From Candidatus Rifleibacterium amylolyticum (lineage in GTDB: Bacteria; Muiribacteriota; Ozemobacteria; Ozemobacterales; Ozemobacteraceae): DNA of 58,890 nt. Positions 19,215 through 58,890 of this stretch are shown here, piece by piece; position 1 is the stretch's first letter; each line of letters starts with the position of its first letter. The stretch lies in contig JAACJG010000020.1 of NCBI GenBank assembly GCA_009917695.1, positions 1 through 58,890 of the forward strand, in the 5' to 3' direction. Made by a program: the position numbers and the translations under genes. The notes under the pieces are model-generated. The model saw only the letters and a program-made list of their open reading frames with translations, was not told the origin of the DNA and searched no databases.

Positions 19215-20459
19215 ATGGATGATAGCAACCGCACAGAAGATCTGCAGCAGGGCCATGGGCTGCCAATAGAGTGGAACCGCATCGCCGCGCTGGTGGCAAC
19301 GGTAGCTGTTCTCTTCTTTTTCACTCGGTCAGCGCCATTTCCTGCCTCGACATTCTGGGATCTGGCGCTGGCCAGAGATTTCGATCTACAGATCGGCTGG
19401 GTCTTTCTGCCTGAAACACTGGCGCTGACAATTGCTGATTCGACCGCTTCTCTGCTTGGCCTGAAGGCGGTTTTTCACATCGCCTTCTTTCTGCTCTGCT
19501 GCCTGATCTGCACCTGGGTATTCAAAAGCCGCGAGATAATGCCGGGTGTTCTGCTGCTGGCGGTATTTTCGTTGTCGATGCAATCATATCTAAGTCTGCG
19601 CATGCTTTTGCAGCTGATTTTTGTAGCAGGCACCCTGACCATACTGGATAACAACCGGCTCAGGAATAATTTCGGGGTGATTCTGATTCCGATAACTGCA
19701 GCCGCCAGCGGCTTGAGTCTCAACAGCTGGCTGCTGGTAATTCTCGTCGCCTGCCATGCTTTCTATAACGACAAATACAGTCCGACTCTGGTGTTGTGCG
19801 CACTGACCGGACTGCTGTTCTTTCCAGAAGGCGCGGCGACAGCGGTTGATCGCACTTCGGTGCTGGCCTGGCAGTTCATGCCGGAAACCGATGTGCGTAT
19901 CATGTATCTGCTGGCGGGCATATTTCTGCTGATCAACCTGATTTCTCTGCACCGGCTCGGGCACGAAGACATGCCGAACCTGTTTTTTTACGCGATTACC
20001 GGTTTTATGGCGGTAATAAACCCAGCCTCGGTACCGATTTTCATACTTATGGGGCTGACCATGCTGCTCAAGTGTTTCAGCGAGGTCGAGCCTTTGCCGC
20101 TAAACTACCATCTTGCCGGAATCATCGTGTTAACCGCGATTATTCACCTGTTTCTTTTCGTCAACCCGTTTGGCTTCAAGCTCAACCCGACAGTGCGCGG
20201 GCAGCTCGGCAAAGATCTCTCGCCGTTGCTCGAAGGCTATATCAGCGAACAGACAGTCTACAACCACGAAATCGGCGAACTGGTCTGGAAAGGTCTGATA
20301 AGCCTTAAACAGGAAGACCTGCCAGTCATCGCCAGCCGCCGCGAATGGAAGATAGTACGTCTCGGCAACGGCGAATTCGAACTGACGCAGCAGCAGAAAT
20401 ATTTCGAAAAGATTACCGCTCCGCTACTGCCAGAGGATCTCCCGAAAGACACCGACTAG
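19215..20459 (+). CDS. Multi-pass membrane protein of unknown function
   Basis: 414 residues with roughly nine to ten hydrophobic segments (from AALVATVAVLFFFT to AGIIVLTAIIHLFLFV) and a soluble C-terminal tail of about 90 residues. I recognise no family; the layout resembles O-antigen polymerase or GT-C-like membrane enzymes, but no motif supports that. It begins 11 bp after the molybdenum hydroxylase stop and is probably co-transcribed. The TAG stop lies in the CTAG that forms the left end of a repeat element (20456-20606), so the C-terminus (PKDTD) may have been set by that insertion. Confidence 0.7.
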   Translation: MDDSNRTEDLQQGHGLPIEWNRIAALVATVAVLFFFTRSAPFPASTFWDLALARDFDLQIGWVFLPETLALTIADSTASLLGLKAVFHIAFFLLCCLICTWVFKSREIMPGVLLLAVFSLSMQSYLSLRMLLQLIFVAGTLTILDNNRLRNNFGVILIPITAAASGLSLNSWLLVILVACHAFYNDKYSPTLVLCALTGLLFFPEGAATAVDRTSVLAWQFMPETDVRIMYLLAGIFLLINLISLHRLGHEDMPNLFFYAITGFMAVINPASVPIFILMGLTMLLKCFSEVEPLPLNYHLAGIIVLTAIIHLFLFVNPFGFKLNPTVRGQLGKDLSPLLEGYISEQTVYNHEIGELVWKGLISLKQEDLPVIASRREWKIVRLGNGEFELTQQQKYFEKITAPLLPEDLPKDTD

Positions 20460-20606
20460 ACCTCTTACATAAGAGTTCAAGTATTAAATGTCATTGCGAG
20501 GAGCGTAGCGACGAAGCAATCTCTTTGACCATGAGATTGCTTCGTCGGGCTGACGCCCTCCTCGCAATGACGATAACACCAAGATTCAATGTTGACAAAG
20601 GACTAG
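20456..20606. mobile_element. MITE-like palindromic element, copy A
   Basis: 151 bp bounded by CTAG on both sides. The right terminal repeat reads, from the outside in, CTAGTCCTTTGTCAACATTG. The left one is a diverged version (CTAGACCTCTTACAT). The core is a long hairpin: TCATTGCGAGGAGCG ... GAAGCAATCTC / GAGATTGCTTCGTCG ... CTCGCAATGA. It belongs to the same family as copies at 28918, 35149 and 58625. CTAG ends with a TA target match an IS630/Tc1-type mechanism. Confidence 0.75.
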
Positions 20607-20655
20607 TACATAATGCTTTCGGCGGGCTCTCGGCAGGATCAGGATTTACTCTAAT

Positions 20656-28917: not shown

Positions 28918-29037
28918 CCGTCTTTGCGAGAAGGGCGCCAGCCCAACGCGGCAATCTTACAGTCAGAAAGATTGCTTCGTCGCTACGCTCCTCGCAATGA
29001 CAGATAGCTCGAAGATTCAATGTTGACAAACCTTTAG
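28918..29037. mobile_element. MITE-like palindromic element, copy B
   Basis: Hairpin core CTTTGCGAGAAGGGCGCCAG ... GGCAATCTT / AAAGATTGCTTCGTCG ... CTCGCAATGA, then the right terminal repeat ATTCAATGTTGACAAA ending TTTAG beside the dnaB stop codon. The left terminal repeat is not recognisable. Its left arm matches that of copy C, so B and C form a subfamily. Confidence 0.6.
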
Positions 29038-30383: not shown

Positions 30384-30418
30384 GAACTCTCTCCATTGCA
30401 AAGTAAGGGCTGGAGCTC

Positions 30419-30451
30419 GATTACGAGCACGATTACGATTACGAGCACGAC
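30419..30451. repeat. Hexamer tract CGATTA/CGAGCA
   Basis: About five and a half units of a 6-bp repeat alternating CGATTA and CGAGCA, between dnaB and the rplI terminator. Related tracts occur at 33221, 36873, 43469, 44298, 45812, 46036 and 51393, with weaker ones elsewhere. Confidence 0.8.
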
Positions 30452-33220: not shown

Positions 33221-33274
33221 GTGCTCGTAATCGAAAAACGAAATCGATTACGAGCACGATTACGATTGCGCGCA
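33221..33274. repeat. Hexamer tract with perfect 14-bp inverted repeat
   Basis: GTGCTCGTAATCGA (33221-33234) and its exact reverse complement (33244-33257) flank a 9-nt loop, then the tract continues with CGATTA and CGCGCA units. Two hexamer tracts in opposite orientation appear to have been joined. Confidence 0.75.
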
Positions 33275-33335
33275 CGATGGAGACAAACAGCGACTCCCAA
33301 AAGAGACGTCGATCAATAGAGATTCTTGTTGGGGT

Positions 33336-35148: not shown

Positions 35149-35268
35149 GTCATTGCGAGGAGAGCGCCAGCTCGACGCGGCAATCCCATTGGCAGAAGGA
35201 TTGCTTCGTCGCTACGCTCCTCGCAATGACCAGTTTTACCATGCGATTCAACTTTAACAGAGGACTAG
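35149..35268. mobile_element. MITE-like palindromic element, copy C
   Basis: Hairpin core TCATTGCGAGGAGAGCGCCA ... GGCAATC / GGATTGCTTCGTCGCT ... CTCGCAATGA, then right terminal repeat ATTCAACTTTAACAGAGGACTAG. The terminal CTAG holds the TAG stop of the 36857-35265 gene. The left terminal repeat is missing or degraded. Confidence 0.65.
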
Positions 35269-43181: not shown

Positions 43182-43468
43182 ATTTGGGCGAGTAATACTA
43201 ATTCTGTGAAATCCTGCGAATTCGCGCAAAATGAGGGTTGCGGACTGTTCTTTGAAGCCCTCCCCACAACAAATCTTCACCATCTGTGTAATCTGAGTAA
43301 TCTGCGAATGCTCTTCTCTTCCATGGTTTTGCAAATTTACACAAGTTTCTGCTTCATTCGCCTGTTAGAATTATTGCAGCGGCGGAAAGGTGAATGTATA
43401 ATGACGGCAGGTTCTGAGATTGCCGAAGGGCGAAGGTGATCGATTTATCGGCGTAATCGGTAGATCAA

Positions 43469-43570
43469 GAAGAGCACGAGAACGAGCACGAGCACGATTA
43501 CGACGCAGGGCAGGGATGGCCAAGTGTCGAGGCGCCGCCGGATGGCAAGCACATCGACTCACGATTACGA
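43469..43570. repeat. Hexamer tracts interrupted by a GC-rich segment
   Basis: GAGCACGAGAACGAGCACGA and CGATTACGA units at about 43469-43505 and again at 43549-43569, separated by a GC-rich insert (CGAGGCGCCGCCGGATGGCA). Upstream of the 43603 gene. Confidence 0.65.
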
Positions 43571-44280: not shown

Positions 44281-44297
44281 TGGGCATTTGCTGCCGC

Positions 44298-44332
44298 GAT
44301 TACGAGAACGATTACGATTACGCGCACAAGAG
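44298..44332. repeat. Hexamer tract CGATTA/CGAGAA
   Basis: CGATTACGAGAACGATTACGA and following CGCGCA units, ending 8 bp before the putative -10 box of the 44352 gene, so it would cover the -35 region. Confidence 0.75.
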
Positions 44333-45812: not shown

Positions 45813-45856
45813 GATTCGATTACGATAGCGATACCGATTACGAGCACGATTATAAT
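45812..45856. repeat. Hexamer tract CGATTA/CGATAC/CGAGCA
   Basis: About six 6-bp units in the gene-free region 45660-46353. A second tract follows at 46036. Confidence 0.7.
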
Positions 45857-46035
45857 AGTGATATACAAAAGCTCATTTAAAGCTGCAAGGCCTGAAGACG
45901 GGCTTGCTTTTTCGTAAGCTTGTGAGCGAAGCGAATCGCTGGAGAAAAAGCAACCCGGCTGAAGGCCGAAGCTGAAGAAAACAAATGAAACAATGAACCA
46001 TTACATAAAAGAGTTAGAAAGTAATGGAATGACGG

Positions 46036-46070
46036 AGATTCGATTACGATTACGATTACGAGCACGATAC
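46036..46070. repeat. Hexamer tract CGATTA/CGAGCA
   Basis: Five to six units (CGATTACGATTACGATTACG, then AGCACGA) about 35 bp upstream of the DEAD-box gene promoter. Confidence 0.75.
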
Positions 46071-58624: not shown

Positions 58625-58769
58625 CTAGTCGTCTGTCAACATTGAATCTGCGAGTTATATGTCATTGCGAGCGAAGCGAAGCAATCTCATGGTCAGAGAG
58701 ATTGCTTCGTCGCTGCGCTCCTCGCAATGACTGTTTTTAAACCTATATTCAAATGTGACAGAGGACTAG
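58625..58769. mobile_element. MITE-like palindromic element, copy D (complete)
   Basis: 145 bp, CTAG at both ends. Terminal repeats: left CTAGTCGTCTGTCAACATTG..., right (read outward-in) CTAGTCCTCTGTCACATTTG. Core hairpin TCATTGCGAGCGAAGCGAAG ... GCAATCTC / GAGATTGCTTCGTCGCTGCG ... CTCGCAATGA. Its right CTAG is shared with the end of the neighbouring IS630-type element. Confidence 0.85.
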
Positions 58770-58890
58770 TGCTTTGTCAAAGTTGAGTTTGCGGATAAAG
58801 TGATTTCAGTTTAATCCTGGCGTCTTCAGTTGAGAACTGCCAGTCTACGGTTTTCTGGGTTTTGTTTCGACAATCAGTCCATGCCGTCAC
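58767..58890 (-). mobile_element. IS630-type insertion sequence, 3' end (partial)
   Basis: The terminal sequence, from the TA inward, is TAGTGCTTTGTCAAAGTTGA, closely like the MITE terminal repeats. It contains the end of a transposase gene and continues past the window edge. Confidence 0.8.
58777..58890 (-). CDS. IS630-family transposase, C-terminal fragment
   Basis: 37 codons plus TGA, open to the window edge. The translation ends WQFSTEDARIKLKSLYP followed by QTQL, which matches the C-terminus typical of IS630-family transposases (W-x-F-T-x-x-D-A-R-I-K-L-K-x-L-Y-P). IS630 elements use a DDE transposase and duplicate a TA target. The gene begins beyond the window. Confidence 0.85.
   Translation of the reverse strand: MTAWTDCRNKTQKTVDWQFSTEDARIKLKSLYPQTQL

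Follow-up and report, generated by a model that had tools for sequence, protein, structure and literature searches.

Putative IS630-type MITE frames around a CGTC-type REP dimer in Candidatus Rifleibacterium amylolyticum

Links between bacterial MITEs and insertion sequences have been described for RUP of Streptococcus pneumoniae, an element of about 107 bp whose proposed mover is IS630-Spn1, and for the Nezha MITEs of cyanobacteria, for which ISNpu3-like elements have been proposed (PMC3049150). IS630 itself prefers the TA within CTAG (Tenzen and Ohtsubo, 1991, cited in PMC2170065). A further class of small repeats, the CGTC REPs, carry the tag CGTC, often changed to TGTC (CCTC is allowed), and form head-to-head dimers with AT at the first stem positions and mostly CCA tails; they are abundant in alphaproteobacteria (PMC3733652). 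In the cited sections of that survey they are described without terminal inverted repeats (TIRs) and without a dedicated transposase, associations with transposases being only fortuitous, and REPs within palindromes are reported from other species, such as A. variabilis GTAG-15 and H. neapolitanus CGTC-1 (PMC3733652).

The window, meaning the whole stretch of 58,890 nucleotides analysed here, corresponds to the entire contig C20 in a draft genome of 5.39 Mb and 35 contigs. The original prediction held that palindromic repeats in it are MITEs of a neighbouring IS630-type element. Two layers can be separated in this claim, a TIR-bounded MITE, for which it is supported, and a separate and widespread REP dimer that appears to be the cargo of this MITE in the genus. 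For the TCATTGCGAGGAG hairpin itself the claim was not supported as stated, since it occurs elsewhere with no IS630-like end beside it.

Copy D and the adjoining insertion sequence

The features of the window are given below.

20456-20606, unstranded: copy A of the composite MITE, with an intact right TIR and a degenerate left TIR (CTAGACCTCTTACA)
28919-29037, unstranded: copy B; hairpin and decayed right TIR, left TIR lost
35149-35268, unstranded: copy C; hairpin and right TIR (1 mismatch, CTAG kept), left TIR unrecognisable
58625-58769, unstranded: composite MITE copy D, 145 bp, an IS630-type TIR frame with a putative CGTC-type REP dimer inside (TIR scan, 0 mismatches at both ends)
58625-58648, plus strand: left TIR of copy D, CTAGTCGTCTGTCAACATTGAATC, which matches the resident IS630 left end at 19/22 positions
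58626-58627, unstranded: TA target dinucleotide on the left side of copy D, inside CTAG (from the sequence; TA duplication was seen at other loci)
58661-58731, unstranded: hairpin core GTCATTGCGAG...CTCGCAATGAC, a head-to-head REP dimer of the CGTC/TGTC-tagged kind as described in PMC3733652
58745-58769, minus strand: right TIR of copy D, minus-strand reading CTAGTCCTCTGTCACATTTGAATAT, 24/25 identical to an IS630 end (L266) of the congener G003
58766-58890, minus strand: IS630-family insertion sequence, right end, truncated by the contig end (127-mer common to contig ends)
58767-58768, unstranded: TA common to the right ends of copy D and the IS630, inside CTAG
58777-58890, minus strand: final 37 codons of the IS630 transposase, with the stop codon (ORF reading and protein matches)
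30399-30450, 33226-33277, 43464-43509, 44284-44329, 45816-45867 and 46034-46067: arrays of a six-base-like motif

Copy D was aligned with 17 other copies from the same genome and two from the congener G002. Its predicted length of 145 bp and its terminal repeats were confirmed, the inverted repeats reading CTAGT(C/G)(C/G)TCTGTCA; folded as DNA, the complete element reaches -39.9 kcal/mol (z -8.45). The best Rfam match, a SAH riboswitch at 26.4 bits against a cut-off of 37, was taken as chance. The arrays listed last consist of a motif (CGATTACGATTACGAGCACGA) dispersed in the window in 11 copies, and a similar motif stands at the start of contig C30.

An identical 127-mer, beginning CTAGTGCTTTGTCAAAGTTG, occurs at the ends of contigs C1, C10, C19 and C29, and 125 bases of it close C20, so that the right end of the insertion sequence, CTAGTGCTTTGTCAAAGTTGAGT, is seen at five contig ends. 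Its left end, CTAGTGGTCTGTCAAAGTTGAAG, lies at six (C9, C11, C14, C16, C21 and C23); these have in common a 127-mer that encodes MGRKKQFVVKLSDSQRKFLKKALRGGRGSALEFR, and CTAGTGGTCTGTCAAAGTTGAAGC lies upstream of its ATG by about 110 bp. A 127-mer common to contig ends is what a k=127 assembler usually leaves where it has collapsed a repeat, and the interior of the insertion sequence is missing because the assembly broke at these 127-base overlaps. The start of the window (positions 1-130, CTCAACACCTGGGTGGGGCCAAAAG...) recurs almost unchanged at the end of C15, so that repeat-induced assembly breaks lie at both ends of the window. The six-contig left end and the five-contig right end very probably belong to one insertion sequence, given that their terminal repeats match, that their coding directions agree and that they occur in similar numbers of copies, a pairing that spans the unrecovered interior. 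Terminal inverted repeats are present at both ends (CTAGTGGTCTGTCAAAGTTGA / CTAGTGCTTTGTCAAAGTTGA); the shared repeat that the original prediction called for at the other end was thus found, at six contig ends. All 11 of the 11 IS ends carry CTAG, in agreement with the predicted preference of IS630 for this tetranucleotide.

The assignment of the adjoining element to IS630 was borne out by its coding end. The minus-strand reading frame from 58890 to 58777 terminates in ...VTAWTDCRNKTQKTVDWQFSTEDARIKLKSLYPQTQL (also read ...WTDCRNKTQKTVDWQFSTEDARIKLKSLYPQTQL), with its stop codon within the terminal repeat, and its C-terminal 37 amino acids are 50-65% identical to annotated IS630 family transposases (best E 5e-7). 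The joined N- and C-terminal transposase fragment of 72 amino acids, which is short, gave no Pfam or NCBIfam match. The DDE/DDD catalytic domain PF13358 had no match in this genome, whose assembly misses the IS interior; this reflects the collapsed interior rather than an absence of IS630. A complete copy is absent from the assembly, so the element is known from its ends alone. Searches for a full IS630 in 96 relatives at the DNA level and 40 at the protein level returned end fragments only, in G003 and G005, and a 1.1-kb candidate suggested by TIR spacing (L402 in G009) was rejected as it sits within an unrelated long ORF.

The terminal-repeat family, its target and its junctions

The TIR consensus has 40 zero-mismatch sites in the genome and, at up to three mismatches, 79 and 88 matches on the two strands against 21 and 21 in the reversed control; a slightly shifted pattern at up to one mismatch gives 67 matches against none. 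The zero-mismatch sites and the counts above the reversed control show that the repeat is not due to chance. About 40 short paired elements are bounded by IS630-type ends, and these are of two kinds, one of roughly 130-220 bp with the GTCATTGCGAG hairpin and one of roughly 250-475 bp without it. Being short and non-coding with IS-matching TIRs, they are MITEs of the IS630 type. The second kind (L118, L119, L121, L122, L125, L130, L132, L137 and L139) has the same TIRs around another core, with motifs such as CTCGTCTGGTGAGAGTTGTAGCG and CCGAGAGCCCGGCATAAG, and part of this core seemingly follows copy A near 20630. A REP-free TIR pair of only 67 bp is also present (L126).

The resemblance between the MITEs and the insertion sequences is close at the extreme ends. 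Between the right end of L002 and the resident IS left end 21/22 positions agree, and the G003 IS630 end that resembles the right end of copy D also overlaps a transposase stop codon. Similarity between the MITEs and the resident insertion sequence is limited to the outer ~21 bp, which marks the MITEs as TIR-sharing elements; their derivation by simple internal deletion of the resident copy was rejected for the same reason. As the TIR subtypes differ (AACATTGA, ACATTTGA and AAAGTTGA), the mobilising enzyme may be a lost relative.

The predicted duplication of a TA target could be followed at a nested insertion and at orthologous sites. At L132 a 250-bp element, itself a REP-free family member, is nested in a hairpin as GATTGCTTCGTCAC-TA[element]TA-TGTTCCTCGCAATGAC, and removal of the element and one TA restores the hairpin arm, gapless across the junction when compared with dozens of intact copies. 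The G002 locus orthologous to the element-bearing L024 reads ATGAAAAACTAGTC, with a single CTAG, and the G005 locus orthologous to L103 has a single TTAG. At the L024 site only the left flank is clear, at the L103 site the flanks have diverged, and the other congeners show CTGA or similar at the site, with CTAG absent and right flanks often diverged. The orthologous evidence for a TA target is therefore good but not perfect, and TA as a target duplicated on insertion is supported by one nested insertion together with the orthologous single CTAG. These traces, like the TIRs common to both IS ends, can be read directly from the nucleotide sequence.

At the end of the window CTAGTGCTTTGTCAAAGTTG begins at 58766, and the CTAG at 58766-58769 is common to copy D and the IS630 end, so that the two abut over one tetranucleotide as had been claimed. 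About eleven junctions of this kind, with a tetranucleotide common to two elements, were found, the criterion being one that a random position satisfies 0.34% of the time. Such abutment could in principle mark a single joint composite of insertion sequence and MITE that moves together, instead of independent insertions at a common CTAG. The number of junctions lends this some weight, since four IS ends adjoin a full MITE (C14, C19, C20 and C21, with a short remnant at C9), a modest excess over the expectation from the CTAG share (binomial P ~0.001-0.01, from rough CTAG totals). However, the partners differ, being of the hairpin type at C19 and C20 and of the non-hairpin type at C14 and C21, no full MITE adjoins that end in the remaining IS copies, and MITEs abut one another with no insertion sequence involved (L007, L100, L135, L139 and others), which makes a joint composite very improbable. 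CTAG is scarce in this genome, with 15 occurrences in the window and 59 in 188 kb, and element ends account for a fair share of them; independent elements landing on each other's ends are therefore to be expected.

The hairpin inside and outside its frame

The hairpin was searched as GTCATTGCGAG-N30-60-CTCGCAATGAC and its wide occurrence in bacteria, part of the original prediction, was upheld: the pattern occurs in 18 of 287 genomes from many families (reversed control, 0 matches), and the matches listed from a GTDB scan include alphaproteobacteria, Bacteroidota, Chloroflexi, Nitrospirae, planctomycetes and candidate phyla. Literature searches with the hairpin sequence returned nothing or unrelated papers only, probably through primers, and its match came from the REP literature. 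Hairpins of the GTCATTGCGAG type also stand directly upstream of the 16S rRNA gene start in several rRNA operon copies (C15_s, C16_e, C19_s and C22_s).

A rival reading is that the hairpin itself is the IS630 MITE, so that the whole pan-bacterial TCATTGCGAGGAG family would consist of IS630 derivatives. Hairpins do lie inside IS630-type TIRs in the window and in the congeners G001, G002 and G004. To score this, 60 bases on each side of each hairpin were compared with the TIR consensus at up to five mismatches, a level reached by 0.75% of random 60-mers of this genome. Of the 27 complete hairpins here, 23 are flanked by at least one TIR, and 19 by one on each side, almost always at a distance of 35-40 bp. 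In the other sampled lineages homology stops at GTCATTGCGAG/CTCGCAATGAC: a TIR was scored in 5 of 110 hairpin flanks from other assemblies, all with exactly five mismatches, and in 1 of 162 flanks among the GTDB matches listed, and no TIR at four mismatches or fewer was found in either set. The family also matches CGTC REPs, which the cited sections of the survey describe with no TIRs (PMC3733652). The flank statistics largely refute this reading, which is left with a very small probability. The fixed geometry of the frame and its absence around the same hairpin elsewhere are likewise seen directly in the sequence. Frame and hairpin also occur apart in the same family, where one genome of another genus (G013) has 63 hairpins with no TIRs found and another (G017) has 20 TIRs and no hairpin of the GTCATTGCGAG type.

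The features of the TCATTGCGAGGAG hairpin fit those of a head-to-head CGTC-tagged REP dimer (Di Nocera, 2013), a match made on described features and not on a published consensus. The base before GTC is C or T at 41 of 58 ends here and at 156 of 164 among the GTDB matches listed, an ATTGC...GCAAT stem is present, and the tail is mostly CTC or CCT here, with CCA dominant among the GTDB matches listed.

Within the genus and family the same frame encloses other palindromes. In G001 and G002 it contains dimers of the GTCATTGCGA type, and in G004 a different REP dimer, GTCATTCCCGC...GGGGATGAC, was found in 14 copies, 13 of them measurable on both sides. At up to five mismatches, 11 of these 13 are flanked by TIRs on each side and the remaining two on a single side (one with a partner at six mismatches, the other with a single TIR at four mismatches), at distances of mostly 36 and 44-46 bp. 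In G017 the frame (L401 and L418) surrounds a third palindrome, TTTCGACTCCGCTCA...TGAGCGGAGTCGAAA, which looks like another dispersed hairpin. The other palindromes of G004 and G017 mark the frame as the stable part and the hairpin as the exchangeable one, and the cargo may have been exchanged through gene conversion, through recombination between palindromes or through insertion into the centre of the frame. A wider generalisation, that IS630-type MITE frames are recurrent vehicles for REP-like palindromes, with at least three unrelated hairpins (GTCATTGCGAG, GTCATTCCCGC and TTTCGACTCCGCTCA types) taken up in species of this family while the frame was kept, is offered tentatively, with somewhat less than even confidence.

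Different REP families in the same frame, species by species, are also what would be seen if REP dimers were moved by an agent of their own, for instance a RAYT-like Y1 transposase, and repeatedly inserted into MITE centres, the frame being their preferred target. The REP-free 67-bp TIR pair of this genome and the palindrome-nested REPs of A. variabilis (GTAG-15) and H. neapolitanus (CGTC-1) noted above (PMC3733652) agree with such insertion. On the other side, a full hairpin is nearby at only one of 30 fetched Y1 loci, and the genome G101, despite 54 hairpins on one 3.9-Mb contig, where CGTC REP dimers occur with clustered single arms, has no Y1 transposase at E 0.001. On the same counts a link to a REP/RAYT system (REPtron), in which repeats flank a Y1 tyrosine transposase gene, is not supported. 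Moreover, the fixed spacing and homologous spacers fit amplified framed units better than many separate insertions. Movement by an agent of their own is thus an unlikely account of the present copies, but it could still explain the original capture.

Proposed explanation and described systems

The reading that best accommodates these observations, and that is held with high confidence, is that the copy D family consists of an IS630-type frame around a CGTC REP dimer, moved in trans into TA with the REP as a passenger. The unit would comprise two IS630-type terminal repeats of ~21-25 bp and short spacers, framing the dimer. The resident insertion sequence, or a close relative with another TIR subtype, would provide in trans an IS630-family transposase that recognises the outer repeats, cuts the element out and pastes it into a TA, preferably in CTAG, which would duplicate the TA, and the REP dimer would be copied along inside. 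With CTAG scarce and present at the ends of every element, insertion sequences and MITEs would often land on each other's ends, as at 58766. Both the trans-mobilisation and the passive carriage of the dimer are what we infer from these patterns, and in this genome CGTC REPs seem to be carried along by an IS630-type MITE.

CGTC REPs span many phyla, and the main survey concluded that there is apparently no transposase dedicated to them (PMC3733652). This genus offers a concrete link, namely REP dimers framed by the ends of a transposase's element, with ends and target visible in the same genome, and a likely explanation of how the hairpin spread within the genus. Composite units can arise when REP repeats merge with IS-derived MITEs, and a widespread hairpin should not be called a MITE from one genome. 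If true, riding in frames could be a general route of spread for transposase-less CGTC REPs and would also explain the REP dimers reported inside palindromes in other bacteria.

Both components are already known, IS630-linked MITEs such as RUP (PMC3049150) and CGTC REPs, and here they are combined; the literature searched contained no description of a family of REP dimers enclosed in the ends of an identified IS family. Like IS630 and ISY100 of the IS630/Tc1/mariner family, the resident element has TIRs of ~24 bp and a TA target with a 2-bp duplication, but it differs in being known from its ends only. RUP is similar as a small hairpin element with TIRs like those of a resident IS630 and with target duplication, although the account cited does not present it as framing a REP dimer that is widespread in other bacteria (PMC3049150). 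Nezha shares the link between MITE and insertion sequence through common TIRs, but no REP-dimer cargo is described for it in the same account (PMC3049150). The hairpin resembles the CGTC-tagged REPs in its GTC tag mainly after C or T, the head-to-head dimers and the shared host groups (Bradyrhizobium, sphingomonads and Bacteroidetes), and probably in the AT at the first stem positions and the CCA tails of alphaproteobacterial copies; it differs in that no dedicated transposase is reported there, whereas the dimers here lie in an IS630-type frame (PMC3733652). The CGTC-1 dimers of H. neapolitanus, carried in 41-bp palindromes, are the nearest described parallel (PMC3733652).
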